Below, piece by piece: positions 3,226 through 23,074 of a stretch of 28,091 nt of DNA. The notes beneath the pieces are model-generated. The model ran no database searches. It was given only the letters and a program-made list of their open reading frames with translations, and was not told where the DNA came from. Numbering within the stretch: the first letter of the stretch is position 1; each line of letters starts with the position of its first letter. The stretch is from positions 1 through 28,091 of the IMG/VR virus record IMGVR_UViG_3300032607_000317, one strand, 5' to 3'. Source of the DNA: a virus. The position numbers and the translations under genes are program-made.

Positions 3226-3642
3226 ATGCCTCCAACAGCTGCTGACATCCCAGCAAATTTTAGTATTGCAACGCCTCTTAATAGAGCTGCTGGCAATGCG
3301 CCGGCTATAGGTATTGGTACAGGTTTTGGCGGTGCTGTTACGCAAGCCACCAGTAAGAGCACAGGCGTAACATTGAGCAAGAAGTCTGGTGTTATCACCA
3401 TGGCTGCATCTGCTTTAGCCACTGTTACTGATGTGTCGTTTACCCTCACTAATACCGAGATAAGCTCAACAGACGTTATTGTTTGTAATCAAGGCACAGG
3501 CGGCACCAGTGGCGCTTACTTTTGTCGTTGCATTACCGTTGCTTCTGGCTCTTGTGTAATCAGGGTGTTAAACACTACTGCTGGCTCTTTATCCGAAGCC
3601 CTGACAATTAACTTCTGTGTTGTTGAAGCAGTGAACAGCTGA
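3226..3642 (+). CDS. Small virion/decoration-like protein, 138 residues
   Basis: The core from about residue 28 reads GIGTGFGGAVTQATSKSTG, then ITMAASALA, VSFTLTNTEI and a TAGSLSEALTINF end. This beta-rich module is one I recognise from small phage or prophage structural proteins and from C-termini of phage proteins, usually annotated as hypothetical or decoration-like. No signal peptide is present. The ATG at 3226 lacks a good Shine-Dalgarno (CCCCCC precedes it), so it may depend on readthrough translation from TerS. Its TGA overlaps the next ATG (TGATG), suggesting the two small proteins are made in linked amounts. Placement between TerS and TerL is unusual for a virion protein. Confidence 0.7.
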   Translation: MPPTAADIPANFSIATPLNRAAGNAPAIGIGTGFGGAVTQATSKSTGVTLSKKSGVITMAASALATVTDVSFTLTNTEISSTDVIVCNQGTGGTSGAYFCRCITVASGSCVIRVLNTTAGSLSEALTINFCVVEAVNS

Positions 3643-6356: not shown

Positions 6357-6522
6357 TTAACTCAGGAAGTAAGTAGGAATTAACCTCATGAACAAGCAAA
6401 TGGCCATCGCTAGCTGCCATTTCCTTTAGCATAGAAACCATGTTGTCTTCAACTGTGTCGGCATCGTAAGGGCTGTGCACAGCAATAAGAGCCCACACTT
6501 CGACAACATACTGATTAATCAT
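6340..6522 (-). CDS. Small unknown protein, 60 residues
   Basis: I place the start at the ATG at 6522, which overlaps the C39-like gene's stop by 8 nt (ATGATTAA). The open frame continues upstream to 6648, but that part is an antisense-like reading of the peptidase gene, and its hydrophobic stretch is probably an artefact. The protein reads MINQYVVEVWALIAVHS, then an acidic, soluble C-terminal part ending ELNGTPN. The function is unknown. It lies between the probable lysin and the HNH gene. Confidence 0.5.
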   Translation of the reverse strand: MINQYVVEVWALIAVHSPYDADTVEDNMVSMLKEMAASDGHLLVHEVNSYLLPELNGTPN

Positions 6523-7210
6523 CGTAAGGGGGATGAGGTTTGCACAAAATCGCCCAACCGCTATTAGGCCCATCAACAAGCCACCGACGATTAAAATTAA
6601 GGCGTGAGTAGTGCTGGCCGCGACCGCCAGCACTACTGATATAGCCACCTTGGATTAAATTTGCCTCTCCGTTGGGGTCGTTGACCACCCAAAACTGGTT
6701 GTTAAAACCCGTAAGCACCGACCAATGGCCCCCGCCACTTGGGTGCAAAGCACTGCCGTGGTGTAACCAGCCCACCGCCACGGGCCGATTGTGCCTAAGT
6801 TCATTTTCTACCAGAGTTACCGATGCGTTGGTGACAAACCGTGCATCTAGGCCCATGTTTTGCAGCGTTTTAACTTGAGCCATTGCGTCCGTAGTATCCC
6901 CATATCGACTTCTTGATTTGTTGTACGCATCATCTGAGTCAACACGTTTCCAATACTTTGCCACCATGGCGCATGAGCTACTGAAGCATTCTCTATAGCC
7001 AGTTCCACTGGCATTGTCCAGTTGGTATTCATAAGGCACGTCAATTTGTACAGAGAGTGAAGGCTTGACCGGGGGGTCGCTCCTAAATAACACCAAAAAC
7101 TCTGCTTTTTGCTTGTCGTCAAGCTGATCCCAGGCAAAATTCCAGGCAGCTTGTTGGTGGGCAAGGGGTGGTTGTACTGTGTTTTTGGCGGCAGCAAGAA
7201 AATTAGACAT
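6515..7210 (-). CDS. C39-like papain-fold peptidase, candidate endolysin
   Basis: The 231-residue protein has a 50-residue helical, Gln/Ala-rich lead, then a C39-type peptidase core. GYRECFSSSCAMVAKYW holds the probable nucleophile Cys75. GGGHWSVLTG carries His162, and VVNDPNGE carries Asp178 as third residue. There is no signal peptide or TM segment, so it would act in the cytoplasm or need a holin to reach the wall. Family knowledge: C39-like domains cut peptides, including wall cross-links or protein leaders. The location between membrane-protein genes and the terminase end matches a T7-type lysis region. I infer endolysin, but a protease role in virion maturation is possible. Its ATG overlaps the upstream stop as TAATG. 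Confidence 0.75.
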   Translation of the reverse strand: MSNFLAAAKNTVQPPLAHQQAAWNFAWDQLDDKQKAEFLVLFRSDPPVKPSLSVQIDVPYEYQLDNASGTGYRECFSSSCAMVAKYWKRVDSDDAYNKSRSRYGDTTDAMAQVKTLQNMGLDARFVTNASVTLVENELRHNRPVAVGWLHHGSALHPSGGGHWSVLTGFNNQFWVVNDPNGEANLIQGGYISSAGGRGQHYSRLNFNRRWLVDGPNSGWAILCKPHPPYDD

Positions 7211-10900: not shown

Positions 10901-12428
10901 CTACAAGATCAACAATCCTTGCATCAATAGCCCCGGTGCTAGCAATGAAACTGTCGCTGCCTGACCAAACATCAGTAGATAAAATTGTTTCGGTAGAGTC
11001 CTGCCTGAAATAACGGCTATCGCTAGCCAAGGTTGTAAATACGCTGGTGTCTAAACCGGTGTAACCAGAAACTTCAGATTGAACAACGACTGCAGCTGGG
11101 TTGAGCTTGGCAATTGTCAGCTCTCCATCTTTAACGTTAGCCAACTCAACAGCATCATCAGCTAGCTTGGCGTTGGTAACAGCATCAGCAGCAAGCTTTG
11201 CTGTAGTTACGTTTAAATCGGTAATTTTAGCTGTCGTAACAGCATCAGCGGCCAGCTTGCCGGTAGTAACGTTTAAATCGTTGATCTTAGCAGTAGTTAC
11301 ATTGGAGTCTGCAATCTTAGCGGTAGTAACATTGCTATCAGCGATCTTAGCTGTAGTAACATTAGCGTCTAAGATTTTAGCAGTAGTAACATTAGCGTCA
11401 GCTATTTTAGCAGTCGTAACATTGCTATCAGCTATCTTAATAGTTGTAACGTTGGCGTCTAAAATCTTGGCAGTGGTTACATGAGAGTCGGCTATCTTAG
11501 CAGTAGTTACATTAGAATCTAAGATCTTAACAGTAGTAACATTAGCGTCAGCAATCTTAGCTGTAGTAACAGCACTATCAGCAATCTTAGCTGTTTCAAC
11601 AGCAGCAACACCAAGTTCAGCAACAGTAACAGCAGCAGCAGCAATCTTAGCTGTCGTTACATTGAGGTTAGCTATCTTAGCGGTAGTAACATTGCTATCA
11701 GCAATCTTAGCAGTAGTTACATTAGAGTCTAAGATCTTAGCCGTAGTAACATTGGCGTCAGCTATCTTAGCGGTGGTTATGTTAGAGTCTGTAATTTTAA
11801 CTGTAGTAACAGCATCAGTGGCAAGTTTACCGGTGGTTATATTGGCGGCTAAAATCTTAGATGTAGTAACATTGTCGTCTAATATTTTAGCTGTAGTAAC
11901 ATTTCCATCAGCAATTTTAGCTGTAGTAACAGCACTTGCAGCAATCTTGGCTGTAGTAATAGCGCCGTCTGCTATCTGCGCTGTTGCAAAGCTTCTGGTA
12001 TCAACGTAGTTTTTGGTAGCTGCGTCTTGGGCGCTGCTTGGGTCAGCAACAAAAGTAATGCGTTGGCTACCAGCTGTCATTAGGCCCGTAGCGTCATCAA
12101 CAAATATGGCCCGTTTCTGGTTGTCGTCTAATTCTTGTTCAAGGTAAAGGTTCTGCAAAGCAGTTGTATCTAGGTCAGCAGCAACCAGCGTTGCCCCGTC
12201 CGTGTAGTTCACCAACACGCTATTAATTGGTGTAACCCGCCGTACTTCTACCCTTAGCCCGTTAGTTGGTGCGGTAGCGACTTGAACTGTGGTTGAGTCG
12301 GCGTAGGTGTAAGCAGTATCAACGTAGTTTACATAGACCTTGATGTGGGCCTGGCTGACGTAGGGGAAGGTGATAGCAAATTGAGTGGTGGAGCCATTGC
12401 CGGTGTAAGCAACGTAGGAATAAGCCAT
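7959..12428 (-). CDS. Tail fibre with T7 gp17-type N-terminus and S74 chaperone C-terminus, 1489 residues
   Basis: Residues 1-145 match the T7 fibre attachment domain (SYVAYTGNGSTTQFAITFPY, VNYTDGATLVAADLDT, LYLEQELDDN). Residues 150-449 are 30 consecutive 10-residue repeats of the type AKIADSNVTT, probably a long thin trimeric shaft. A second repeat block with IANVNTVAGA units lies at about residues 603-712, then modules with DPNTGVFSPG and DPDTGMFFG. The C-terminal domain from about residue 1380 is a peptidase_S74 intramolecular chaperone. Ser1385 and Lys1390 in SDYRIKKD fit its autocleavage dyad, and FLAHEVQEVLPEG is also typical. The chaperone would trimerise the fibre and then be released. 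The ATG overlaps the gp16-like stop (TAATG). Confidence 0.92.
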   Translation of the reverse strand: MAYSYVAYTGNGSTTQFAITFPYVSQAHIKVYVNYVDTAYTYADSTTVQVATAPTNGLRVEVRRVTPINSVLVNYTDGATLVAADLDTTALQNLYLEQELDDNQKRAIFVDDATGLMTAGSQRITFVADPSSAQDAATKNYVDTRSFATAQIADGAITTAKIAASAVTTAKIADGNVTTAKILDDNVTTSKILAANITTGKLATDAVTTVKITDSNITTAKIADANVTTAKILDSNVTTAKIADSNVTTAKIANLNVTTAKIAAAAVTVAELGVAAVETAKIADSAVTTAKIADANVTTVKILDSNVTTAKIADSHVTTAKILDANVTTIKIADSNVTTAKIADANVTTAKILDANVTTAKIADSNVTTAKIADSNVTTAKINDLNVTTGKLAADAVTTAKITDLNVTTAKLAADAVTNAKLADDAVELANVKDGELTIAKLNPAAVVVQSEVSGYTGLDTSVFTTLASDSRYFRQDSTETILSTDVWSGSDSFIASTGAIDARIVDLVDDVGGFVPIANETSFPAANPDVNDGAGTIVSIKEIATTRTPSSGTVTIANGQGANTVTITGCSTTVLTAGFGVLIETTATLNTYSFHRLVPKATEVTTVAGISADVTTVATNIADIQTVASDLNEAVSEINTVATDITNVNTVGGAIANVNTVAGAIANVNSVASNSANINTVSGAIANVNLVGASIADVNSVATNLASVSNFADVYRIAASDPTTSLNTGDLVFNSTSNELRVYNGSAWQGGVTATGNLMSKTGDTFTGPAGVTLGTALLPGLFFSGDPNTGVFSPGANQFSITTDGVSRLAVGATGDVALSAALSVTTTLAVTGASTLTGALAANGGITVDSTAFTVADTTGNTSIGGTLGVTGISTFTGALNANGGVVGAVTGAASSNVLKAGDTMTGALVMGNNQAIDFKEATANGSNKVSVVTAASLTSDTTLTLPNITGTVVTTGDTGTVTSTMITDGTILNADINASAAIVYSKLSLGTSIVNADISASAAIVDTKLATISTASKVSNSATTATDANTNSAIVARDASGNFTAGTITAALTGLASSATTAAACTGNAATVTINANLTGDVTSSGNATSIAAGVIVNADVSAAAAIAGTKVTGDFGAQNMTTTGTTTAAKFHPGSNGTAALPVIGIAADPDTGMFFGTNEVNLTRNGIVGMTLNTTETKFTLQDTNKFTVATTGNANVLAVSPGIARLGIREEFPCGCLDIKVGEPGSTFDFGASWGAATTAILIHTASPTSTASQNMGALGITYNNTKGAIFGAIEPGVAWKDFTFQHESVLFEQAGTNAVMKLTAGNYHIVGSVTISSVHALINVGSNTVKGAAALNVMCGAGQAATRDANVFNIHWDGSAAYLYIDTSQIGSFAYASDYRIKKDVVNLENFATEKIKALRPVRYTHKDYEVFKASEKPFVGFLAHEVQEVLPEGASGEKDGEDIQHLKLDAILAYTVKALQEAVARIETLEAQVAILSSAK
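10290..10620 (-). repeat. Second fibre repeat block (INTVxxAIAN type)
   Basis: About seven clear decapeptides, such as VNTVGGAIAN, VNTVAGAIAN, INTVSGAIAN and VNLVGASIAD, plus degenerate flanking units. The recurring plus-strand word is ACAGTATTAACGTT-like. It is probably another rod segment of the fibre. Confidence 0.75.
11082..11981 (-). repeat. 30 in-frame 30-bp coding repeats in the fibre shaft
   Basis: Thirty units of exactly 10 codons occur without a single indel, consensus AKI(A/L)D(S/A)NVTT. Units diverge at the DNA level, mostly at third positions, but several neighbours are nearly identical, so recombination could change shaft length. Confidence 0.9.
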
Positions 12429-15400
12429 TAGCGGAGGGCCTCTTGTTGGAATTGCTGGGGGTTCAGCCCGTATTTAAGCTGATACTTAACATCATTGTCT
12501 GCTGTTTCCTGTTTAAGCAGGATAAGTTGCAGGTCGGGGCGGGTTTCTAGATACACCTGCTTGGCAAGTTGCTTGTATTTCTGGATCACCCCGTCAATTT
12601 GGAGAGCACGACCACTCAGGTCTTCAGTACTAGGTTCGGTAATTGGTTGGTCTTGGTAAAATTTGCTTTTCATTAGGGAATCCAATTCTTGGTAGACAGT
12701 TGTATTGAAATTGGGGTCAGTAACAGTCGCCATAATTGTGTTGTATTTGCCAAATTCAGTAGGGCCAAGCCGGTTTTGCCGTCCAAAGTCAGCTGCGTGT
12801 GGCCCTCTAAAGTTTGCGCCCTTACTGTGCAAGCGAGCCATTTCTGCTGCAACTGGATCTATAGAACTTTGTTCTGCCCCTCTTTGGAGTGGCGACCAAG
12901 GCACGTATTGCATAGCCATTGACAGCCAGGGGTTATCAGGCGGTAGATGCGCATCGCCTAAAATGCCTGATTGCACAATCATGTCGCCAGTCAACCAGTT
13001 AATCCTTGCTGGGATGCCTTCAGACCAACCAGGGGTTTGGTTGCGAATCTCGTCAAGCGTTTCAGAAAAGAAACTGCCTGGTTCAATTGTTCTTACAGCC
13101 CGGTCGTCGATGCGGCGGCCTGCTCGTAAAGCCGAGCTAGCTGGCTCAAGCGAAGCAGCTATCCTTGAGAAATAGCGAGTCCATGAACTGCGAGAATTTG
13201 GCTGAATGTCTAAAGCAGCATTGCCAGCGACCGCTTCGTAGAACTCTGTAAATCCTTGGTAGTAAGTTTTACTTAAAGTACCTGAAGCAACCATACTTAA
13301 TACAGTAAGAGTTAAAGCGTCGCCTAAATTTTCTCTTTGCTCTTTAGTTAGGTTGCCTTGTATCTCAAAGTAATCTGCTACCGCGCCAAAGATAGTAGCA
13401 AAAGGTTCAGTTACTCTGTAGCTTACCCATGGCGTATCTTTAAACCGAATTGAATATGGCTGCTTGCCACTATCCCTCCATTTCTGTTTAGCTCCAGGAT
13501 CTTGTGGGCCGCCGCCAGTCATCTCAACTATCCCTGCACTTAAGCCAACCATGGCTAAAGCTATTGCACTTGAACCAACGGCTACGTCGCCAATAACCCT
13601 GTCCCTGGTCATTGCATCCATAGAGTTTAAGTCTCTGTAAGCCGTATCAACAAAAGGTGCAGCTGGCGTCATGCGTAGAGCAGATTTAATAATGTCGCCG
13701 GGTGTTCGGTTAAACGGCTGAAGAACAGCAAATGCAGGGTGGAAGTCAATTAGTTTCTGCCAAACCATTGGCATGACACTTGGGCCTTTAGTAAAGAAAG
13801 GTATGTCTTGCTTTTTATCTGCCCATTCCCTAGCCCAAGCTTCTGCTGCTGGGCCTTCCAGCTTTTTGTCTTTAGCTATTTCCATGCCCCTATCAAAAGT
13901 TCTGACTTCCATTTGCGCGTCAATATCATCAGTAAATGTGGCATACCTCATAGCTGTTTGAGCGTGAGGGCTTGTCATTATTGCGTCCAGAATAGTTCTG
14001 CCTTCTACGGTTGCATGTCTAGTAGCTCGTTTAACTGCTTCGTCAGCGTATCGTTGAGCGTATTCCATAGCTTCTTGGCTGTTGCGTTCTAAGCCTTGTG
14101 CAACAGCGTTATCCATTCCCATGGGCAAGTTGCGTACAAATTCAAATGATTGCCCTGCCAACACTTTGAATAAAGTGTCAGCTGCAATTTGAGCACGGAT
14201 TGGTGATGTAGCTGTCTGCCACAATCTCTTTTGAGCTATAGCCCAAGAAGTTTTATCTTGTATATTAATCCAAGGCATTGTGCTTACAGTAAAACCTTTG
14301 TCGCTAGTTGGTAAAATTACTGGGCCAGTTAATGGAATCAATTCTCCCTGATCTTTATTTATTTGTTGATCTAGAAAATCAAGGCTTTGGTTGTCTATGT
14401 CGTATAAAGTGCGGCCAGCTTTGTACGATTCCTTAGCTAACGCAAAAGCATTGGGTAAATTGCGAATGTATTGCCCATAGATTTGAGCACTGTATCCTGC
14501 GCGTTCAAACTGCCCCTGCAAACCAGCCCCTACAATTTGAGCTAATGGCATTTGTATTAATCTAACAACTCCATTTAAAGTGTTACCCCAGAAAGTTAAA
14601 CCTGACGACAATAGCTGGGCAGATCGGTACATAACCAATCCGTTCAATCCAATCTTACTTCCTTTGTTTATTTGACTCCAGAAGCTTGGGGCAAAACCAG
14701 GAACATCCCTTGTTGCTTTTAAGTTGTAAGCTATTTGATCTATCATTGCATCTAACTCTGGTGTAAATTCGCCGTTAATAATTGCCTCATTAAAGGCTGG
14801 ATCTATCTTGTCACCAAGGTGTTCTGCCAATGTAACAGCTTCTTCTTCCTTCGCTCCGTTTTCTAATATCTCATCTAACTTGTATTCTTCTAGGGTGTTT
14901 TTAAAATCTATACTGCCAGGTTGTGGCCGTTGAATTTGACCAGTTCTAAGTACTTGGCCAAGTGCCCTTGTAACTTTAACAACAGGAGTATTAACGTCCG
15001 ATGCGTGTTTGTAAATTGCAAGTAGCTCTTGGCGTAAAGCGTCTCTATCAACGTTTGTATCGTATTTAGAATTAAGCCATTGATCAGCAACAATAGCGGC
15101 TTTGTTGTTTGTGTAATCAGCTAGATACTGGGCCATTAGCAAAGATTTCTGCAATGCTGCAGCGTTTTCCAAGCTGCCAGCCCTGTATTCCAATTCCCCT
15201 AGAACTGCCTTGGCTTGATAATCATTCTTTGCAAGCCAACGTTCAGCTTGTTGTTTGACAATTTCATCAGGGATAGTAGGCATACCAGACACTTCTTCTC
15301 TTGTGCCTCCAGCATTCATCCAAGCTCTCATAGCGGCTGAGGCCCCTTCTGCGGCTTCAGGGTCTGGCACGTAAGCGGTTTCACCGCTAGGGCTTTGCAT

Positions 15401-18400
15401 AGGTTGTACGTTGCGATCAGCGACCACATTGGTAATTAAGTCGTCCAAGGTCATTTCACCGCTAGCTATCTTGGCTTTTACATTTTCGTATTCATCAATA
15501 AATCTTTCAGCACTACTTTTTAAAGCAGGCAAACCTTTGCCGCCTCTTCTGGTGTCTTCGTATGCCATGCTCATTGTCTGAAGTAAATCTAATCTTTCAA
15601 AATTAGGATCATTTGCGGTTTCTAATACACTTCCCAGCTCGCCACGTTTAGCTAGCTTGCCGCTGTAGGCATCTTCAAAAATAGATTTAATTGAGATAAA
15701 GCCACGTTCCTTAAAAGCATTGCCTACTCTTTCCACAAAATCGTAAAGGGTATCCATCACGGCAAAAGCTGCTTTCTGTAACCCAGAACTTTTTTCTAAT
15801 TCGTCGCGGGTAGCACCTAATAAAGCTTGAACGGGATCTAAATTATTTTTGCGAGCCCAAGCGTATATCTGGAAAGATACTGCAGCCTTTTCAATTGGCA
15901 GTAACTCATCACGACCTCCCTTTAAGTTTGCTGCAATCTCTTTAGCTGCACCAACTTCTAATTTAAATCCTGCAAGGAATTGGTTGAAAACTCTTAGCTC
16001 CTCTGGCTTTAAGAAATTAAATTGAACACGGTGAAAAGATTCATGGAATGCACTTTGCTCTAATTTATCAGTCAAAAACCGTAACAAGTCTGGTTGTTGT
16101 ACATCAGACGATAAAATTTGAAGATTATTTACTTCAATAATATCTTGCGTAGGATCGTACGTGCCGCTATATTTCATTGTTTCCCCTGGCTTATATCCCC
16201 ATGCAGCGTCGCCTTCTTTAGTTTCCATAAAGGCGTCGTTAAAACGAATAGCAGGTTCATCACCTGCAACAGTGCGAATAATCTTGGTTAACTCTTCCGC
16301 TAAAGCGCGAGTGGCTGGCTCGTCTACGGTCATATCTAATTCGTTTGCTTCTATCCGCTTAAGCAGCGCGTCTATTTCAGCTAACCGTGCTTGGATTTCC
16401 TCCCTTGTTGGGATTGGCTTCTTAGGCAACCCAGGCAACTCAGGCTCTCTGCTGCGTAAAGGAGTAAAGCTAGGATCGTAGATTGAACGGTAAGCATCTT
16501 GGGCTGCTTTTACTTCAGGGGTAAACCTACCCATACCTATATCGCTTCTAACTTGATCCATATTTAAGCTTTTTACTGCATCTGGATCGAAGGCTACATT
16601 TGCAGCTACGACTGCGTTATATGCTCGTTCGTCTGTAATTTCATCTACTTGCCGTTTGCCTTGATCAAAATACTTCTTATAAGCGCGGGCTGCACCTTCC
16701 ATTCGACCGCCATCATTTGGCCCAAATTTTCTAGTTGCTGCTTTAATCTCAGCGGCTAAAGGTGAAGGTGGTTCTATTGCAGCCGCAGCCACATTGCCCA
16801 TGGGTTGCACTGCTGTGCGAGCTATCCGCTCCCGTAGCTGATCAGCCAGTACCGTGTTTCCATTCTTTTCGGCAGCGGCCAGGCGGATTTCGTCAGGCGT
16901 TCCCGCTTTAGGGGCGGCTACTGCAGTTAGAACATTGTCAACTATTTCTTCAGCTGCAGAAACAGAAGCGGCCCCTGAAGCAGTTGGTTGCGATTGTTTC
17001 CCAAACGTTGTTGACCGCTGCTGCATGTCGTCGTAAGCGGCTCTGGTCGCTTCCGACGTCCAAAGTTGCTTTAGCTCTTCAAGGTTAATTTTTTTGCTAG
17101 CTAACTGCAAGTAGGCGGGATCAACCCGGAGCATGTAGCTGTGAACAACAAATGCCGCAAGGTCGTCGGTCTTGTATCCAAGGTTTAAGCCTTGGTCAAT
17201 GTCTTTCAAAATTCGGTTGCTGTTAATATCACCTGCGGCACGGATTTGTTTTTTGTCCGCCGAAGTAAGCGTTTTTCCTTTTAAAACATTTGTTTTATCA
17301 ATTCCTTCTTGAGCCCCTGCAGGGCGGTCATCTCTTATGGATACCTCGGGGCGCTGGATGCGTTGAAAGTCGGGGGCGTTGGCAGGGCCAATAACGCCAC
17401 GATTTGCAGCAGCAGCAAATTCATTAATAGTTAAACGTTCCGGGCTATCAGATAGAGCGGCCCCTGAAGCAGTTGGTTGCGGTTGGTTGTATGCAATAAC
17501 TTGATCATGGTCAAATACTCTTTGAAGAGTTTTGCCTGTCATTTCACTTTCTGGAACCCAAATAATTAGCCCATCGTGGCCACGCGATATAACTTGTTGT
17601 TTTAATTGCTCAGTTAAACCTTTAGCTGTCGCGTCATCTTGCCCTACTAAATTGCCAGTACGCCATCCAGCGGCTTGAGTTAATTCTCTCCACGCAGAAT
17701 CGCTGTCAATTACGAGGGGGCTTTCTAGCTGTATTGTTTCTCCAGTAATTTTATCGCCGTACTGTTTCGCATCCATTTGGCGGACAGCAATGTAACGACC
17801 TTCGCCACCAATAGCAATTTGAGGGCCTGCGTAAATATCAGCTTTAGCTTTGCCTTCTCCCCGGAACCCAGCAATAGCAATAGGTTGCCCAGTCCTAGCG
17901 TCCAATATGGAAGAGAGTGGCAAAGCAGGGGCAGCTGCTTCAGGTTCAACAGGTGTGGGTTGTGGTCGTGGTGCTTCTGGTGCTGGCTCTTCAAAGGGCA
18001 GCCGGGGGCCGTTAGCTTCATCGTCTATAGCTGCTCGTATCTGGGCAAGGTTTTCTTTAACGACCTGTGCAGCTTTTTTCTTAGGTGTTATTTGTGCAGC
18101 TAGGTTGTTTAGTAAGGCACGTACTGGGCCCTCGTATTGAGTTACCCGGTCAAATAGGTTTACTGCTTGTTGGGCAGTGGCCTTAGCTGCTTGACTGCCA
18201 GCAACGTCAATCACATTGCCAGCTGCTTCTAAGACACCTTGGCGGCCTGCTCTAGCAGCAGAAGATAAAGCAACAACCCCTTCGCGTAATGCCTTGGCGG
18301 CTTCTGTGCGTACATCCAACAACTGATCAAAGTTACTGGTAGCAAAGAAGTCTTCAAACCCTGGCAACATGCCACCGCCAGCAGTAGGCGTCGAGGCCGT

Positions 18401-20254
18401 AGCAAACTTTGCTTCTTGCATAGCCTGCGTAATCTTGTCAGCAGACCACTTGCCCTTCTCGGCACGGGCAGCAACGCTATTGATAATAGTTTCGTCTAGG
18501 TCTCTAACAGAACCCAAAGCAATAGCCCTGTCTTCTGTTAAGGCTCCTGTGGCTACTTGATCAAATACGTTCTGAGGTAACCGTGCAAGAGGAATAGCCC
18601 TAGAAGCTATTCTCCCGGTAAGGTTTACGCCAAAGTTTTCTAGGTTTTCTGGGCCTGCCTTCATGTCACGCAAAAACTTGGCAGCATCAATAGGAGTGCC
18701 TTGACCCTCTGCAATATTTTGCAAAGCGCCTACAGCCCGTGCTCCAACAGCGTCTGGGGTTTGTATGTATCTAACTAAAACTTTTGCTGTTCCAGACTCA
18801 AGTGCTTTTTGTACCCGGTTATGGCCATTAACAACAAAATCTTTACCAGTTGCTGGATCTTTCCAGACGCTAATAATTCCAGCAAGTTCAGGGTTGTATT
18901 CTTTGGATTCTTTTAGGGAACCGCTAACACCTGTCTTAGTTTTTGCGCCTGCAAGTTTATATTGGAATCGTTGGGGATCTATTGCAAGTGTCGTAGGGGC
19001 AACTTCTGCTACGTTGCGACCGACAGGTCTATCTAGCTCGTCCGCAAAAGATGGTTGCTCACCAGGATCTGCCTCTCTTGTTTCTGTTTGCTTAACTACT
19101 TCAGTTTGAAAGGCATCATTAGCGTTCTTAACATCATCAAGAGCTTCTAATACTTTTGGATCTTTTAATTTATCTAATTCGGTTTTGCCAGCAACAGCTT
19201 TATTGTAATTTTTAACAGCTTTAACTTGTTTAAAAAACCGGAAAGGCAATTCAAGGGCACCACCAAGAAGCAAACCTTCAAGGGCATTTTTAAAACGACC
19301 CTCTAATGCCCCGTCATTTGGGTCACTTTTAAGATAATCAATGACAAGAGGTTCAAATGCCGTGCCTTTAACTAGGTCGTTTGCAGCATCAGTAAGCCTG
19401 CCGGTGTACTGGTCAAAAGCAACTACATCAGTAATGGCAGATGTAATAGCAGCTTTGCCCGTTACTTGGGAAAGGCCAGATCTAGTTACAGCACTTGCAC
19501 CAGCTTGAACAACTTGGCCGACAGGGCCGGCAGCTTTTACGCCAGCTTGCACAACTCCTGATATTTTTGTACCAGCTTGGGCAAAGGGCGCTGCTGCCGC
19601 TGCAAGATCTTTAGCAGCCCTAAGCCTGGTCGTAGCTACCCCAAGTCTGGCTGCCATAGGCAACGCCGCAAAGGCACCTCTAACGGCCAAGCCACCTAAA
19701 CCCACTGCGGCAGAGCCGGTAACAAACCCTAGACCTAGTTGTAAAGCGCCAACTGCCAAGTCCTCAGCGGGGCCGCTACTTCTAGCTCTAGGCAATGCAG
19801 GCAGCACACCAAGGAAAGGCGCGTCTGGTGTTTTGGCTGATGTAGGAGATTTCTTGCCTAAAATTTTTGCGCCAACTTCTTGCACAAAGTCGCTGTTTTC
19901 TTGCAACGTAGTAAATAAAGCCCGTTGCGGAACTCTCTTTATTGCACCAGCAGGGCCAACAGCTTTATTGCTGTCATCAACCATTGCCTTGGTAGTAGCG
20001 CCAAAAGCTTTGCCAATGTCACCAGTTTTTTGTAAGGTCTGGAGCCCTGCGCCTGCTGCCTTTAACCCTTGGCCAACCATGCCAGTGGGATTAACGGCTT
20101 CTGCAATTCCTTTTACTTGGCCAATAAGATTTGCAGGTTTTAGGGCCTGCTCTAATTTATTTGCTGGGGTTGGCTTAGCTGGCTTCTGTGGGCCAAACTC
20201 AAACACCTCAGTGACTTTGCCTGTTACTGGATCTGTTTCGTACTTGACAGGCAT
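12428..20254 (-). CDS. Giant gp16-like internal/ejection protein with polyvalent-protein domains, 2608 residues
   Basis: The position between the gp15-like gene and the fibre is that of T7 gp16, but the protein is about twice as long. Visible modules in order: an Ala/Gly-rich, partly hydrophobic N-terminus; a ParB/Srx-like domain at about 425-520 (VVNGHNRVQKALESG); an ADP-ribosyltransferase-like domain at about 780-925 (IAGFRGEGKAKADIYAG, RYIAVRQMDAKQYGD, SRGHDGLIIWVPES); a zincin-like domain at about 1290-1560 with HESFH at 1404-1408, ending in FISIKSIFEDAYSGKLAKRG-type sequence; and a large C-terminal region (about 1880-2440) with PFNRTPGDIIKSA and PYSIRFKDTPWVSYRVTEPF, as in domains that accompany polyvalent proteins. 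These domains are known from proteins carried into cells by phages and conjugative elements. I infer ejection with the genome and host modification. Catalytic residues of the ART domain were not verified. Confidence 0.85.
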   Translation of the reverse strand: MPVKYETDPVTGKVTEVFEFGPQKPAKPTPANKLEQALKPANLIGQVKGIAEAVNPTGMVGQGLKAAGAGLQTLQKTGDIGKAFGATTKAMVDDSNKAVGPAGAIKRVPQRALFTTLQENSDFVQEVGAKILGKKSPTSAKTPDAPFLGVLPALPRARSSGPAEDLAVGALQLGLGFVTGSAAVGLGGLAVRGAFAALPMAARLGVATTRLRAAKDLAAAAAPFAQAGTKISGVVQAGVKAAGPVGQVVQAGASAVTRSGLSQVTGKAAITSAITDVVAFDQYTGRLTDAANDLVKGTAFEPLVIDYLKSDPNDGALEGRFKNALEGLLLGGALELPFRFFKQVKAVKNYNKAVAGKTELDKLKDPKVLEALDDVKNANDAFQTEVVKQTETREADPGEQPSFADELDRPVGRNVAEVAPTTLAIDPQRFQYKLAGAKTKTGVSGSLKESKEYNPELAGIISVWKDPATGKDFVVNGHNRVQKALESGTAKVLVRYIQTPDAVGARAVGALQNIAEGQGTPIDAAKFLRDMKAGPENLENFGVNLTGRIASRAIPLARLPQNVFDQVATGALTEDRAIALGSVRDLDETIINSVAARAEKGKWSADKITQAMQEAKFATASTPTAGGGMLPGFEDFFATSNFDQLLDVRTEAAKALREGVVALSSAARAGRQGVLEAAGNVIDVAGSQAAKATAQQAVNLFDRVTQYEGPVRALLNNLAAQITPKKKAAQVVKENLAQIRAAIDDEANGPRLPFEEPAPEAPRPQPTPVEPEAAAPALPLSSILDARTGQPIAIAGFRGEGKAKADIYAGPQIAIGGEGRYIAVRQMDAKQYGDKITGETIQLESPLVIDSDSAWRELTQAAGWRTGNLVGQDDATAKGLTEQLKQQVISRGHDGLIIWVPESEMTGKTLQRVFDHDQVIAYNQPQPTASGAALSDSPERLTINEFAAAANRGVIGPANAPDFQRIQRPEVSIRDDRPAGAQEGIDKTNVLKGKTLTSADKKQIRAAGDINSNRILKDIDQGLNLGYKTDDLAAFVVHSYMLRVDPAYLQLASKKINLEELKQLWTSEATRAAYDDMQQRSTTFGKQSQPTASGAASVSAAEEIVDNVLTAVAAPKAGTPDEIRLAAAEKNGNTVLADQLRERIARTAVQPMGNVAAAAIEPPSPLAAEIKAATRKFGPNDGGRMEGAARAYKKYFDQGKRQVDEITDERAYNAVVAANVAFDPDAVKSLNMDQVRSDIGMGRFTPEVKAAQDAYRSIYDPSFTPLRSREPELPGLPKKPIPTREEIQARLAEIDALLKRIEANELDMTVDEPATRALAEELTKIIRTVAGDEPAIRFNDAFMETKEGDAAWGYKPGETMKYSGTYDPTQDIIEVNNLQILSSDVQQPDLLRFLTDKLEQSAFHESFHRVQFNFLKPEELRVFNQFLAGFKLEVGAAKEIAANLKGGRDELLPIEKAAVSFQIYAWARKNNLDPVQALLGATRDELEKSSGLQKAAFAVMDTLYDFVERVGNAFKERGFISIKSIFEDAYSGKLAKRGELGSVLETANDPNFERLDLLQTMSMAYEDTRRGGKGLPALKSSAERFIDEYENVKAKIASGEMTLDDLITNVVADRNVQPMQSPSGETAYVPDPEAAEGASAAMRAWMNAGGTREEVSGMPTIPDEIVKQQAERWLAKNDYQAKAVLGELEYRAGSLENAAALQKSLLMAQYLADYTNNKAAIVADQWLNSKYDTNVDRDALRQELLAIYKHASDVNTPVVKVTRALGQVLRTGQIQRPQPGSIDFKNTLEEYKLDEILENGAKEEEAVTLAEHLGDKIDPAFNEAIINGEFTPELDAMIDQIAYNLKATRDVPGFAPSFWSQINKGSKIGLNGLVMYRSAQLLSSGLTFWGNTLNGVVRLIQMPLAQIVGAGLQGQFERAGYSAQIYGQYIRNLPNAFALAKESYKAGRTLYDIDNQSLDFLDQQINKDQGELIPLTGPVILPTSDKGFTVSTMPWINIQDKTSWAIAQKRLWQTATSPIRAQIAADTLFKVLAGQSFEFVRNLPMGMDNAVAQGLERNSQEAMEYAQRYADEAVKRATRHATVEGRTILDAIMTSPHAQTAMRYATFTDDIDAQMEVRTFDRGMEIAKDKKLEGPAAEAWAREWADKKQDIPFFTKGPSVMPMVWQKLIDFHPAFAVLQPFNRTPGDIIKSALRMTPAAPFVDTAYRDLNSMDAMTRDRVIGDVAVGSSAIALAMVGLSAGIVEMTGGGPQDPGAKQKWRDSGKQPYSIRFKDTPWVSYRVTEPFATIFGAVADYFEIQGNLTKEQRENLGDALTLTVLSMVASGTLSKTYYQGFTEFYEAVAGNAALDIQPNSRSSWTRYFSRIAASLEPASSALRAGRRIDDRAVRTIEPGSFFSETLDEIRNQTPGWSEGIPARINWLTGDMIVQSGILGDAHLPPDNPWLSMAMQYVPWSPLQRGAEQSSIDPVAAEMARLHSKGANFRGPHAADFGRQNRLGPTEFGKYNTIMATVTDPNFNTTVYQELDSLMKSKFYQDQPITEPSTEDLSGRALQIDGVIQKYKQLAKQVYLETRPDLQLILLKQETADNDVKYQLKYGLNPQQFQQEALR
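16967..16992 (-). repeat. 26-bp direct repeat, copy 1 (linker in the gp16-like gene)
   Basis: The copy is identical over 26 bp to 17456-17481 and encodes QPTASGAA. The two copies bracket a segment of about 160 residues between the ART-like region and the next part of the protein. Confidence 0.85.
17456..17481 (-). repeat. 26-bp direct repeat, copy 2 (linker in the gp16-like gene)
   Basis: The copy is identical to 16967-16992, 489 bp away. It encodes QPTASGAA just after the ART-like domain (context YNQPQPTASGAALSDS). Confidence 0.85.
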
Positions 20255-20257
20255 GGG

Positions 20258-23074
20258 CTAGGTTCCTCGTTGAACGCGGCGGAGAATGTCCATTGTGTAT
20301 TCCCTGATCGAAGGATACCGCCGCCCGTTGTAAGTTTGCACCCTGTTGTTGTCGTATTTGTTGGGGTCGCCGCTATACCAAGTAGACGCAGCTCTGCGAA
20401 TAGCAAGCGACTGTGAACGACCAGCTGCAATCTCATTGTCGTAATACTCCTGCAATTGACCCTTAACCACAGCGTCTTGAGCTGCTCTGTTGTATCTGTA
20501 TTGATTTGGGGTCAATCGTTGCCCATAAAATTTAGCCGTCCACGATGGTACGTTCTCTGGCATTACTTGCCCTATACCAATTGCACCAGAATCTGGGTTT
20601 AATATTTCATAGTTGTTACCGCTTTCTTTGCCTATAAGTGCCACCCTTAACTTTTGCCCTACTTGGTCTCCAATGGTGGGGTCGGGGCCTCCCATGCCTA
20701 AAGGCGCAGTATTAAGCGTTCTAGCCGCAGTAGGATTTTTCGTAGTCCATGCTTGTAAAGCATCTTGTATTAAACGCTGCACCGGGGTTGCCGTTGGAAC
20801 CATGGCAAAACCTGGGTAAGCGTTTGTAGCTGGCTCTGAAGTAGATACAAGGGGGCTTGTGTCTAAATCTAAAAGTCTTTGCTCTTGCCCAGGCGCTAGT
20901 TTTATATCGTGGTTTCTCATTTGATTAAAGAAAAACTCACTGGGCCTCATTGTGGAACTTTTAATAATTAATTTAGTAGAGTCATCTAATTCTTTGCCGT
21001 TTGATAAATCTTCTAACTGTTGTATCAATGTAGTTTTGTCGTATAATTTTTTATTCTTTATCTCTCTGTTTAATTGATTTACTTTACTTGGGGTGTTTTG
21101 CTTAATGCCGCCAAACATACCGTAACCAAAGCCTTGTTGGTTTAAAAGTTTTGTGTATTGCTCAGGGGTTTTAGCAGCTTGGGGAAGGCTGGCGTTAGGG
21201 CTTGATGCTCCTCCTGCTGGGTTATTCATCTGTCCAGCGGGAGGGAATGCAGCTGCGCCTGGGGGAGCTCCAGGGGCTTTATCATATTTGTCCATGGCTT
21301 TTCGATACAAGTTTTCAAGCTTGTCGCTTACATCGGTGCCTTTGCTATTCTTTATTATTTCGGTTCCTCGGCGCATTATATCGTTTCTTTCTTTAGCACC
21401 ATCTATATCTTCCTGTTTGCTTATTCCAGCATTACGATCTCCATAAAAACTTGTGTTTAAAGCTGCTTCCTGCCGTTGTCTAAACGTCCTAGCAAAGTCT
21501 TTAAGCACATCATTATTTAATTTATTCTCGCCAGCTTGCCGCTGTGTGTAGTTTTTATTAAGTTCATTGTAAGCTTCTTGCGATAAATTGCCGTTTCGAT
21601 ATTGTGTAAGTATGCGTTGTTTCCCAGCTGGAATGTCGTCAAGCATAGAAGCTTCGTATTCTCTTATAAAAGTTTCTTGTTGTATAGGAGCAATACGCGC
21701 TGCCCCAATCGCAGCACTTACAACGCTTAGTTGGCTATTAGCAATAGCAAGCAATTGAGGATCGCCCCCATAAACTTGAAGTAATCTTTTTCTTAGCTTT
21801 ATTTCAGCCGCTTGAAACTTTTGAGGGCTTGCTATTACATTTTCAGTAAATGTTTCGCTTATCATTGCCTTAGTTAAATCTTCTGTTGCTTTTTTGTTTT
21901 GACGTTCGTCTTCGTTTCTCTTTTCATTTAAACCTGCGTTCATTACTTTCCTTAATTCAAATGCTGCTACTGCTGCCGGTACGCCAAAAGAACCTATAAG
22001 CCTTGGCTGTTCCCCTGAAGCAACAAGCTGGCCAGTTTTAATAAGGCCCAACGCTAGAATTGCTTCGGTTCTAAATTTGTCTGGGTCTGCAGCGTTTAAC
22101 GATTGTATTGCAAGAATCTTGCCAATGTTATTTAAAGCATTAGCTTTGTATTTATCAAAGTTTGCCGGGGTCGTGGAATTGTATAGAGTTTGTTCAAGCT
22201 CTTCATAGGCTTGTCGTAAGCCTTGTACGCCAATTTGGCCTTTGGCAAGTGTGTTAAACAATCCTGAAACTTGTGAGAAATGGGTATCAATTACTTTTTC
22301 ATCAGCTGCATCGGCAAAGCGTTGCGTTTGCGCAGCGTTCTGCGCACCCATAGCTTGCGCTATAGACATTGCATTGCTACCCATTGCTTTTGCGTTAGCA
22401 CCTTTAGGCAGTATTAATTCAGTAAGTGTTTGCTTCCATTCATCTGTGTCGGCCCTTAATTCATTTATTGGGGTGCCAAATATACCTCTCTTTAAAGTGC
22501 TTACCTTAGAAGGCAAACTAGTAATGTTAGATTGAATTGCTAAATTGCCTAATGCTGTGTCTACATAGCTTTGAGTTTCTGGCCAAGCTGCTCTTAACTG
22601 GTTATAGACAGGCAACAGTGATGGGTCGCTTTGAACCTTAGCTCCAACGTCACCAATTGCTTCTTTAAACGACAAGTAGCCTTTGGTTTGCAATGACCCT
22701 GAAAGGGCTTGAGCTTCGGCTTGGTTTTCTTTCGTCTTTATTTCACGCCGCTGATCAAGGTATGTACCTAGATCCCCTAGGTTTTCGTTAAAACCAGACA
22801 GAGCCTTAGCTAAATTTGCTAAATCGTTACTAGGCTTTGGCGATTCAGGCCGGTCAAACATAAAAGGTTTGCCACCCAATTCAGCTTTACCAGCTTGGAT
22901 ATAGGTATTAACTGGTGTCGCTTGTGGGTTTAAAGCTGGTGTGCCGATGCTGTCTCCAGCAATAGGAGCGCCGCTTGACGTTTGGGCAAGGCCACCTAAC
23001 AGGCGTTGCGATGTTCCCCCTGTAAATTTATTGCCTTGTTCAAACGCAGCCCCGGAGCCAAGTTGTTTTGCCAT
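20258..23074 (-). CDS. gp15-like internal virion protein with C-terminal lytic transglycosylase domain, 938 residues
   Basis: Residues 1-750 are largely helical and Ala/Gln-rich, as in T7 gp15, with no membrane segment. The C-terminal 140 residues form an SLT-type transglycosylase: VALIGKESGNNYEI holds the probable catalytic Glu (about 815), followed by GAIGIGQVMPENV and NRAAQDAVVKGQLQEYY, then AIRRAASTWYSGDP. The enzyme would open peptidoglycan locally during DNA entry. In T7 this domain is at the N-terminus of gp16. Here it sits on the neighbouring protein, and the gp16-like protein carries other domains instead. It starts 2 bp after the gp14-like stop and ends 3 bp before the gp16-like ATG, so the three ejection proteins form one expression unit. 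Confidence 0.85.
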   Translation of the reverse strand: MAKQLGSGAAFEQGNKFTGGTSQRLLGGLAQTSSGAPIAGDSIGTPALNPQATPVNTYIQAGKAELGGKPFMFDRPESPKPSNDLANLAKALSGFNENLGDLGTYLDQRREIKTKENQAEAQALSGSLQTKGYLSFKEAIGDVGAKVQSDPSLLPVYNQLRAAWPETQSYVDTALGNLAIQSNITSLPSKVSTLKRGIFGTPINELRADTDEWKQTLTELILPKGANAKAMGSNAMSIAQAMGAQNAAQTQRFADAADEKVIDTHFSQVSGLFNTLAKGQIGVQGLRQAYEELEQTLYNSTTPANFDKYKANALNNIGKILAIQSLNAADPDKFRTEAILALGLIKTGQLVASGEQPRLIGSFGVPAAVAAFELRKVMNAGLNEKRNEDERQNKKATEDLTKAMISETFTENVIASPQKFQAAEIKLRKRLLQVYGGDPQLLAIANSQLSVVSAAIGAARIAPIQQETFIREYEASMLDDIPAGKQRILTQYRNGNLSQEAYNELNKNYTQRQAGENKLNNDVLKDFARTFRQRQEAALNTSFYGDRNAGISKQEDIDGAKERNDIMRRGTEIIKNSKGTDVSDKLENLYRKAMDKYDKAPGAPPGAAAFPPAGQMNNPAGGASSPNASLPQAAKTPEQYTKLLNQQGFGYGMFGGIKQNTPSKVNQLNREIKNKKLYDKTTLIQQLEDLSNGKELDDSTKLIIKSSTMRPSEFFFNQMRNHDIKLAPGQEQRLLDLDTSPLVSTSEPATNAYPGFAMVPTATPVQRLIQDALQAWTTKNPTAARTLNTAPLGMGGPDPTIGDQVGQKLRVALIGKESGNNYEILNPDSGAIGIGQVMPENVPSWTAKFYGQRLTPNQYRYNRAAQDAVVKGQLQEYYDNEIAAGRSQSLAIRRAASTWYSGDPNKYDNNRVQTYNGRRYPSIREYTMDILRRVQRGT

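Follow-up and report, generated by a model that had tools for sequence, protein, structure and literature searches.

In phage T7, the middle part of gp16 is thought to be cytoplasmic, bracketed by TMH I and TMH II, and a clamp on the genome near 850 bp has been proposed (PMC8954989). The gp16 analogue of phage N4, the virion RNA polymerase (vRNAP), is also ejected; it is a giant enzyme that contains an HExxH domain (PMC12633501). Polyvalent proteins are also already known (Iyer et al. 2017, PMC5512222), in a text that nowhere mentions internal virion or ejection proteins and describes no fusion with them. A 2025 survey of ParB folds relied on the PF02195 and TIGR00180 models, and its text nowhere mentions virion or polyvalent fusions (PMC12704722). 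The large genes of the P-SCSP1 phages were guessed to encode internal virion proteins from size and position only (PMC9860041), and one cultured phage of this group has a cryo-EM portal–tail structure (PMC10575957). The literature that we searched contains no description of a fusion between a polyvalent protein and a T7-type gp16, of a ParB domain with a helix-turn-helix (HTH) in an ejection protein, or of a shuffling cassette zone. Here we show that one chain combines an exchangeable cassette zone with the metal site of a zincin, a ParB N-domain with HTH and a C-terminal block of gp16 type.

Gene context and the gp16 block

The window, the whole 28,091-nucleotide stretch analysed here, is a metagenomic virus fragment (IMGVR_UViG_3300032607_000317, positions 1 to 28,091). 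Its virion genes lie on the minus strand in the order capsid, gp11, gp12, gp13, gp14, gp15-like, the open reading frame studied here (P0001) and gp17 tail fibre; the terminase is on the opposite strand. P0001 runs from ATG to stop with no internal stop codon.

12428–20254, minus strand: whole ORF P0001, a gp16-type internal virion protein with inserted modules, 2608 aa
7959–12428, minus strand: gp17 tail fibre (context; PF03906)
20258–23074, minus strand: gp15-like protein with an SLT-like C-terminus (context; weak matches to phrog_6654/12661)
12461–14809, minus strand: gp16-type C-terminal block (aa 1816–2598; phrog_6651, tblastn)
19703–19759, minus strand: hydrophobic Gly/Ala-rich segment (aa 166–184), a possible first membrane segment (hydropathy, borderline)
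13538–13597, minus strand: hydrophobic segment (aa 2220–2239), a possible second membrane segment (hydropathy)

A first-pass annotation of this DNA had placed P0001 at the gp16 position, and this is borne out by the minus-strand gene order and by profile matches of gp12 (Phage_nozzle, E = 1e-225), gp13 (PF11090) and the gp17 tail fibre (PF03906, E = 6e-37). P0001 lies between gp15 and the tail fibre within the virion block, as gp16 does, and in the late gene context of polyvalent proteins. The motif strings quoted in the annotation, VVNGHNR, FRG (797–799), RYIAVRQM (from 820), GHDGLIIW and HESFH (1404–1408), all occur in P0001. Scans of the whole protein against Pfam, NCBIfam and PADLOC returned nothing significant; the sole phmmer match in the PDB, mitochondrial uS10, was judged spurious.

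The C-terminal block matches the internal virion protein family phrog_6651 (residues 2177–2454, E = 2e-28), and tblastn aligned residues 2166–2576 with internal virion protein D of Roseobacter phage CRP-114 (3e-17) and residues 2136–2423 with gene 16 of P-SSP7 (2e-8). Judged by these alignments, the final ~780 residues share ancestry with marine proteins annotated as gp16. This large region had been read as a polyvalent-associated domain; we reject that assignment in favour of homology to internal virion protein D/gp16. A profile of the block (alignment A5) found no PDB match at E ≤ 10, including to the solved T7 gp16, but the gp16 of CRP-114 also finds no PDB match, so the absence of similarity to T7 gp16 may reflect the limited reach of the method.

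The first hydrophobic segment is borderline in P0001 and below threshold in the relatives tested. In P0001, the two segments bracket the ParB/zincin part as TMH I and TMH II bracket the cytoplasmic part of T7 gp16, and we count this in favour of a membrane-spanning model; with no sequence match detected between the C-terminal block and structures of T7 gp16, the topology would be by analogy. Synteny and homology are what suggest that P0001 is present in virions and would be injected with the DNA.

The window has other features of interest. A separate minus-strand gene (38–1054) encodes an ArdC anti-restriction protein with ArdcN and MPTase-PolyVal domains (PF18818, E = 1.5e-33), a classic polyvalent-type protein. 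Another minus-strand gene (6515–7210) encodes a cysteine peptidase-like protein (Peptidase_C70/C39_2) that PHROGs classes as an endolysin. The tail fibre has a long array of VTTAKIADxN-type repeats and a terminal S74 endosialidase chaperone domain. The lytic transglycosylase (SLT) domain is on the gp15-like protein (L124:7778–10639, counterpart of the window gene) and not on gp16 as in T7; it was seen solely through the counterpart in P-SCSP1g (SLT_3, E = 1e-13), and a PDB sequence search did not show it at the C-terminus of the window's own protein.

A ParB module with an HTH

The N-terminal half of P0001 contains a block with the motifs of ParB.

18650–19012, minus strand: ParB N-domain (aa 415–535; Foldseek of the model of relative L011, profile–profile alignment with canonical ParBs, invariant columns of alignment A1)
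18395–18652, minus strand: ParB HTH-type region (aa 535–620; HTH_ParB PF17762, hhalign over 160 columns)
17978–18397, minus strand: helical block after the HTH, conserved in all relatives (aa 620–759; alignment A1)

The N-domain has a Box I-like DPQRFQYK (426–433), a Box II NGHNR (476–480) and a Box III-like ALQN (510–513). Across alignment A1, NGHNR is invariant, including the phosphate-contacting Arg of the GxxR motif, and a Box III-like A(L/M)(Q/E)N and an HTH-like tail are present. The best HTH_ParB match among relatives has E = 6.5e-4, with E = 0.14 for P0001 itself. An AlphaFold model of L011, which is 59% identical to the window protein over the ParB block, has reasonable confidence mainly in its ParB part (local pLDDT mostly 60–87). 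Foldseek matched this part to CTP- or CDP-bound ParB, Noc and KorB (E from 4e-6, prob 1.00, to 3e-4) in alignments of ~205 columns, ranked ahead of sulfiredoxins. In one comparison, hhalign aligned 160 columns with canonical ParBs (P = 2.6e-4), pairing GERRxRA with NGHNR, ENLQR with QNIAE and then the LRLLxLP...GxLSxGHARAL segment. The scans with PF02195 and TIGR00180 gave no match to P0001, and a curated DdrB-type ParB model gave none at E ≤ 1 in any of 31 members.

The identification of this module as ParB, with an N-domain and an HTH and thus more than an Srx-like motif, is well supported. The first-pass annotation had called it ParB/Srx-like: the ParB half of that call stands on the L011 fold and the profiles, whereas the bare DdrB/Srx-like domain gives way to an N-domain followed by an HTH.

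Compared with canonical ParB, P0001 lacks the second Arg of Box II and keeps only the Asn of Box III; the Glu is Gln in P0001 and Glu in part of the family, and the Arg of ENxxR is lost. No C-terminal ParB dimerisation domain was recognised. The residues that matter are known from Caulobacter ParB mutants (PMC8367383). Aligned to that protein, P0001 retains R104 and N136, has lost R103 and R139 and has Gln for E135, a pattern that makes nucleotide binding plausible and hydrolysis doubtful. The identity of the nucleotide in ParB folds is not predictable, as the 2025 survey warns (PMC12704722).

The last 300 positions of PHROG family 21 match the ParB block (aa 410–724, window 18083–19027, E = 2e-46), and the label of this family, ‘portal protein’, is probably wrong for the ParB part.

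A zincin metal site

15506–16351, minus strand: zincin-like metallopeptidase (aa 1302–1583; alignment A2, HMM survey, hhalign to ArdC-type MPTase-PolyVal)
16031–16045, minus strand: HESFH metal site (aa 1404–1408; sequence, alignment A2)

This part of P0001 has a GxYDP strand, the HExxH motif and a downstream Glu (1455). In alignment A2 (19 sequences, identity down to 21%), the His, Glu and His of HExxH, the upstream GxYDP and the downstream Glu are all invariant, and HExxH is kept in all 42 complete zincin-bearing proteins; Glu 1455 is probably the third zinc ligand. Hhalign against ArdC-type MPTase-PolyVal sequences, including the window's own ArdC, gave P = 0.0064, compared with 0.74 for an unrelated control, and placed the strand and HExxH in register. 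The zincin part of the L011 model is mixed, with mostly low pLDDT, and Foldseek returned no zincin match for it. A zincin module, as had been proposed from the HESFH string, is well supported by its invariant motif, whereas the fold was not confirmed by the structure model.

An exchangeable cassette zone and a probable divergent ART

16463–17977, minus strand: cassette zone (aa 760–1264), variable in length and content (comparison of relatives)
17477–17920, minus strand: ART-like cassette (aa 779–926; pooled-profile scores, hhalign; weak)
17456–17481, minus strand: left copy of the 26-bp exact direct repeat CGCAACCAACTGCTTCAGGGGCCGCT, encoding QPTASGAA (sequence comparison)
16967–16992, minus strand: right copy of CGCAACCAACTGCTTCAGGGGCCGCT (sequence comparison)
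16994–17449, minus strand: cassette with no assigned function (aa 936–1087), with 68% identity to a cassette that L028 has at a different place
16766–16816, minus strand: linker peptide TAVQPMGNVAAAAIEPP (aa 1147–1163), recurring between cassettes at positions that vary in relatives

Among relatives, the stretch from ParB to zincin ranges from fewer than 50 to several hundred residues of unrelated content. The gene of P0001 and that of its relative L002 have ~88% DNA identity on both sides of this zone, and the ART-like cassette and the next one are missing from L002. A 110-bp module, at 3336–3445 in the gene of P0001, has a 93% identical copy in L002 on the opposite side of the conserved linker TAVQPMGNVAAAAIEPP; this linker is found at other positions in ~20 loci. 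The in-frame exact repeats CGCAACCAACTGCTTCAGGGGCCGCT flank cassette aa 936–1087. As read from these alignments, even genes that are ~88% identical differ in which modules lie between ParB and zincin and in their order, through insertion, loss and shuffling. The L002 comparison, the flanking repeats and the recurring linker suggest recombination between short repeated linkers.

A search of phages, plasmids and viral contigs for the ART-like cassette of P0001 (FRG...GEGRYIAV...AKQYG...SPLVID...GHDGLII) located just one further copy, in L003. A profile pooled from ART-PolyVal members and the relatives' ARTs scored 18.2 bits on the fragment and 13.6 on whole P0001 (best of 200 shuffles, 4.2), and one from the relatives' ARTs scored 9.6 bits on the fragment (decoy maximum, 4.7). 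A profile built from PF18760 members alone did not score the cassette above shuffles, and hhalign gave P = 0.06. An AlphaFold model of this cassette and the next, from a three-sequence alignment, was uninformative (pLDDT 41) and was discarded. Within the catalytic His-Tyr-Asp/Glu set, the Tyr is kept and the motif places Arg (of FRG) at the His position, with an insecure alignment of the first strand. The cassette is probably, on weak scores, a divergent ART with Arg for His. The ART proposed from these strings thus survives in part: it scores above shuffles with the pooled profile, but the signal is weak and the canonical His is replaced.

Relatives have clear ARTs of the L037 type (PARP, E = 2e-7) and the L034 type (DUF3990/ART-PolyVal), and most ARTs other than those of P0001 and the P-SCSP1 clade keep the YHG[TN] motif. 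The ARTs of the P-SCSP1 clade (L124, L167, L169, L175–L186) mostly have Lys for the catalytic His (LRKGT). Basic substitution at this site is repeated, as Lys in that clade and as Arg in the window protein.

Relatives and domain architectures

The polyvalent part is encoded by 53 viral contigs, 17 cultured Prochlorococcus P-SCSP1 phages and one uncultured phage; a profile search with the ParB block returned 80 loci, which overlap with the 53 contigs. In 32 more phage records, the match is confined to the C-terminal block; many of these are annotated as internal virion or core proteins. The P-SCSP1g protein ULF49719.1 (2563 aa) is 44% identical to P0001 over 334 aa of ParB and 28% identical over 846 aa of the C-terminal block; the zincin is also matched.

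We compared architectures in 45 non-redundant complete ORFs with ParB. The commonest are ParB–zincin–gp16 (20) and ParB–zincin–ART–gp16 (20), followed by ParB–ART–gp16 (2) and by single cases of ParB–ART–zincin–gp16, ParB–gp16 and ParB–zincin without gp16. ParB is fused to the gp16 block in 44 of the 45, a zincin is present in 42 and a clear ART in 23. The constant core of the lineage is ParB plus the gp16 block, although the constancy of ParB is biased because the relatives were found partly through it. P0001 has at least two biochemically unrelated domains, ParB and zincin, in one chain, as polyvalent proteins have. The idea of a polyvalent-type architecture within a gp16-type ejection protein is supported by these two modules and by real ARTs in about half of the relatives.

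The lone non-fused case is Nohivirus S31C1 (L125:6408–14302), in which ParB–zincin is its own 1484-aa gene directly before a gp16-sized gene (1145 aa) whose similarity to the gp16 block is limited to a short GGGPxDPG motif (31 bits). UniProt names the S31C1 relative by a polyvalent-associated domain.

A 20-bp sequence, AGTGTCCCAAGTGCGGGAAC, encodes SVPSAGT in frame and occurs once per contig in 28 loci of the relatives (for example, L007:12398–12420 and L043:6709–6731); it is absent from the window. Its synonymous sites hardly vary: five of its seven codons have an identity near 1.0, compared with 0.48 for amino-acid-invariant ParB columns. It lies before ParB in one clade and after ParB in two others; of the shared 18-mers listed, no other occupies non-homologous positions in three clades. 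A promoter is not favoured because each contig has the sequence just once and always within the one gene.

Possible function and alternative explanations

Our preferred reading, which we consider quite possible but short of probable, is that P0001 is a giant gp16-type ejection protein with an inserted polyvalent block that delivers a nucleotide-gated ParB DNA clamp and cassettes freed by the zincin. P0001 would be stored in the virion core and ejected early, as is T7 gp16, and would insert into the inner membrane so that its middle part lies in the cytoplasm. Once there, the ParB module might close, under nucleotide control, on the first stretch of entering phage DNA and hold or ratchet it; by analogy with the corresponding middle part of T7 gp16, it would be a ready-made clamp. 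The zincin could subsequently trim the chain and free the ART and other cassettes, which would act on host targets and be swapped between phages as hosts and defences change. DNA clamping, ejection, self-processing by the zincin and the targets of the cassettes are what we infer here. Host RNA polymerase, named in the first-pass annotation as an effector target, gains no support; nothing here bears on such a target.

It is also conceivable, although somewhat unlikely, that all of the modules are host-directed effectors only, the ParB-like part being a DdrB-type nucleotidase or DNase that acts on host DNA or nucleotides and has no role in DNA uptake. Such a role was suggested by Iyer et al. (PMC5512222) for ParB domains of the DdrB-like kind in polyvalent proteins of phages, NGHNR carries the Asn noted for the DdrB family, and the variability of the cassettes resembles an arms race. 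However, the domain continues into a ParB HTH, its structural matches to ParB, Noc and KorB come ahead of Srx-type structures, it has no nuclease-type Pfam match and, unlike a fast-changing effector, ParB varies less than any other part of the N-terminal half.

The enzymes could instead act in the producing cell, with the zincin processing the chain before packaging and only the gp16 block or fragments entering the virion. Processing before packaging has been proposed for P1 DdrB, whereas the N4 vRNAP, which has an MPTase domain, is packaged unprocessed (PMC5512222). The separate ParB–zincin gene of S31C1, adjoining a gp16-sized gene, fits such a division of labour, but fusion of ParB to the gp16 block is nearly universal and therefore favours co-delivery; we regard action in the producing cell as unlikely.

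A mainly structural role for the added domains, as filler or scaffold in the internal core and with catalytic sites that are relics, seems improbable to us. Degenerate ART sites in two lineages (Arg in P0001, Lys in the P-SCSP1 clade) and the lack of both zincin and ART in L131 would suit relics; invariance of NGHNR, and of HExxH and the downstream Glu to 21% identity, would not, nor would retention of YHG[TN] by most other ARTs. An artefact, by chimaeric assembly or frame fusion, is rejected as having practically no chance even in a metagenomic fragment, given that dozens of independent contigs, as well as cultured P-SCSP1 isolates, carry the same fusion.

Returning to the ejected clamp with releasable cassettes, a bolder and rather doubtful version is that a whole lineage of T7-like phages has a ParB NTP switch in gp16 that holds or ratchets the first stretch of the genome, the rest being a recombining cargo bay released by its own zincin. 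If true, a nucleotide-gated clamp would explain in physical terms how gp16 controls DNA entry that does not depend on transcription. More generally, the results suggest that a marine T7-like virus and dozens of relatives deliver a multi-tool protein with the genome, and they bring together the T7-type ejectosome for DNA and injected polyvalent effectors, two fields so far described separately. How entering DNA is held or driven by gp16, a long-standing question, becomes testable with a defined domain that may bind nucleotide. The large internal proteins of the P-SCSP1 phages, which the describing paper could not annotate (PMC9860041), receive a homology-based annotation, and virion ejection proteins become an added context for ParB folds, one unmentioned in the recent survey text.

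Comparison with known systems

P0001 resembles T7 gp16 (internal virion protein D) in the gp15–gp16–gp17 order, in the hydrophobic segments that flank a large middle part and in a C-terminal block homologous to annotated marine gp16s. It differs in being twice the size (gp16-like proteins are 609–1337 aa in a review, PMC8954989), in having no recognised N-terminal SLT (on the gp15-like protein in P-SCSP1g) and in the addition of ParB, zincin and cassettes. With polyvalent proteins (PMC5512222), it shares the combination of unrelated enzyme-type domains (ParB, ART-type and zincin) in one phage late protein; unlike them, it is built into a T7-type ejection protein, its ParB has an HTH and it has no PolyVal Pfam match.

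The likeness to the CTP-switch clamps ParB, Noc and KorB extends to the N-domain fold, the GxxR motif and the HTH, whereas Boxes I and III of P0001 are divergent, a C-terminal dimerisation domain is not recognised and the module is fused to a virion protein. ULF49719.1 of the P-SCSP1 group (MPP-C) is the same protein, with ParB, zincin and C-terminal block, but has other cassettes and an ART located after the zincin with Lys for His. The N4 virion RNA polymerase, compared here by description, is likewise an ejected gp16 analogue of giant size, in which an enzymatic core is accompanied by an HExxH domain (PMC12633501), and has an RNA polymerase core where P0001 has ParB; by analogy, it is the nearest working precedent for P0001.
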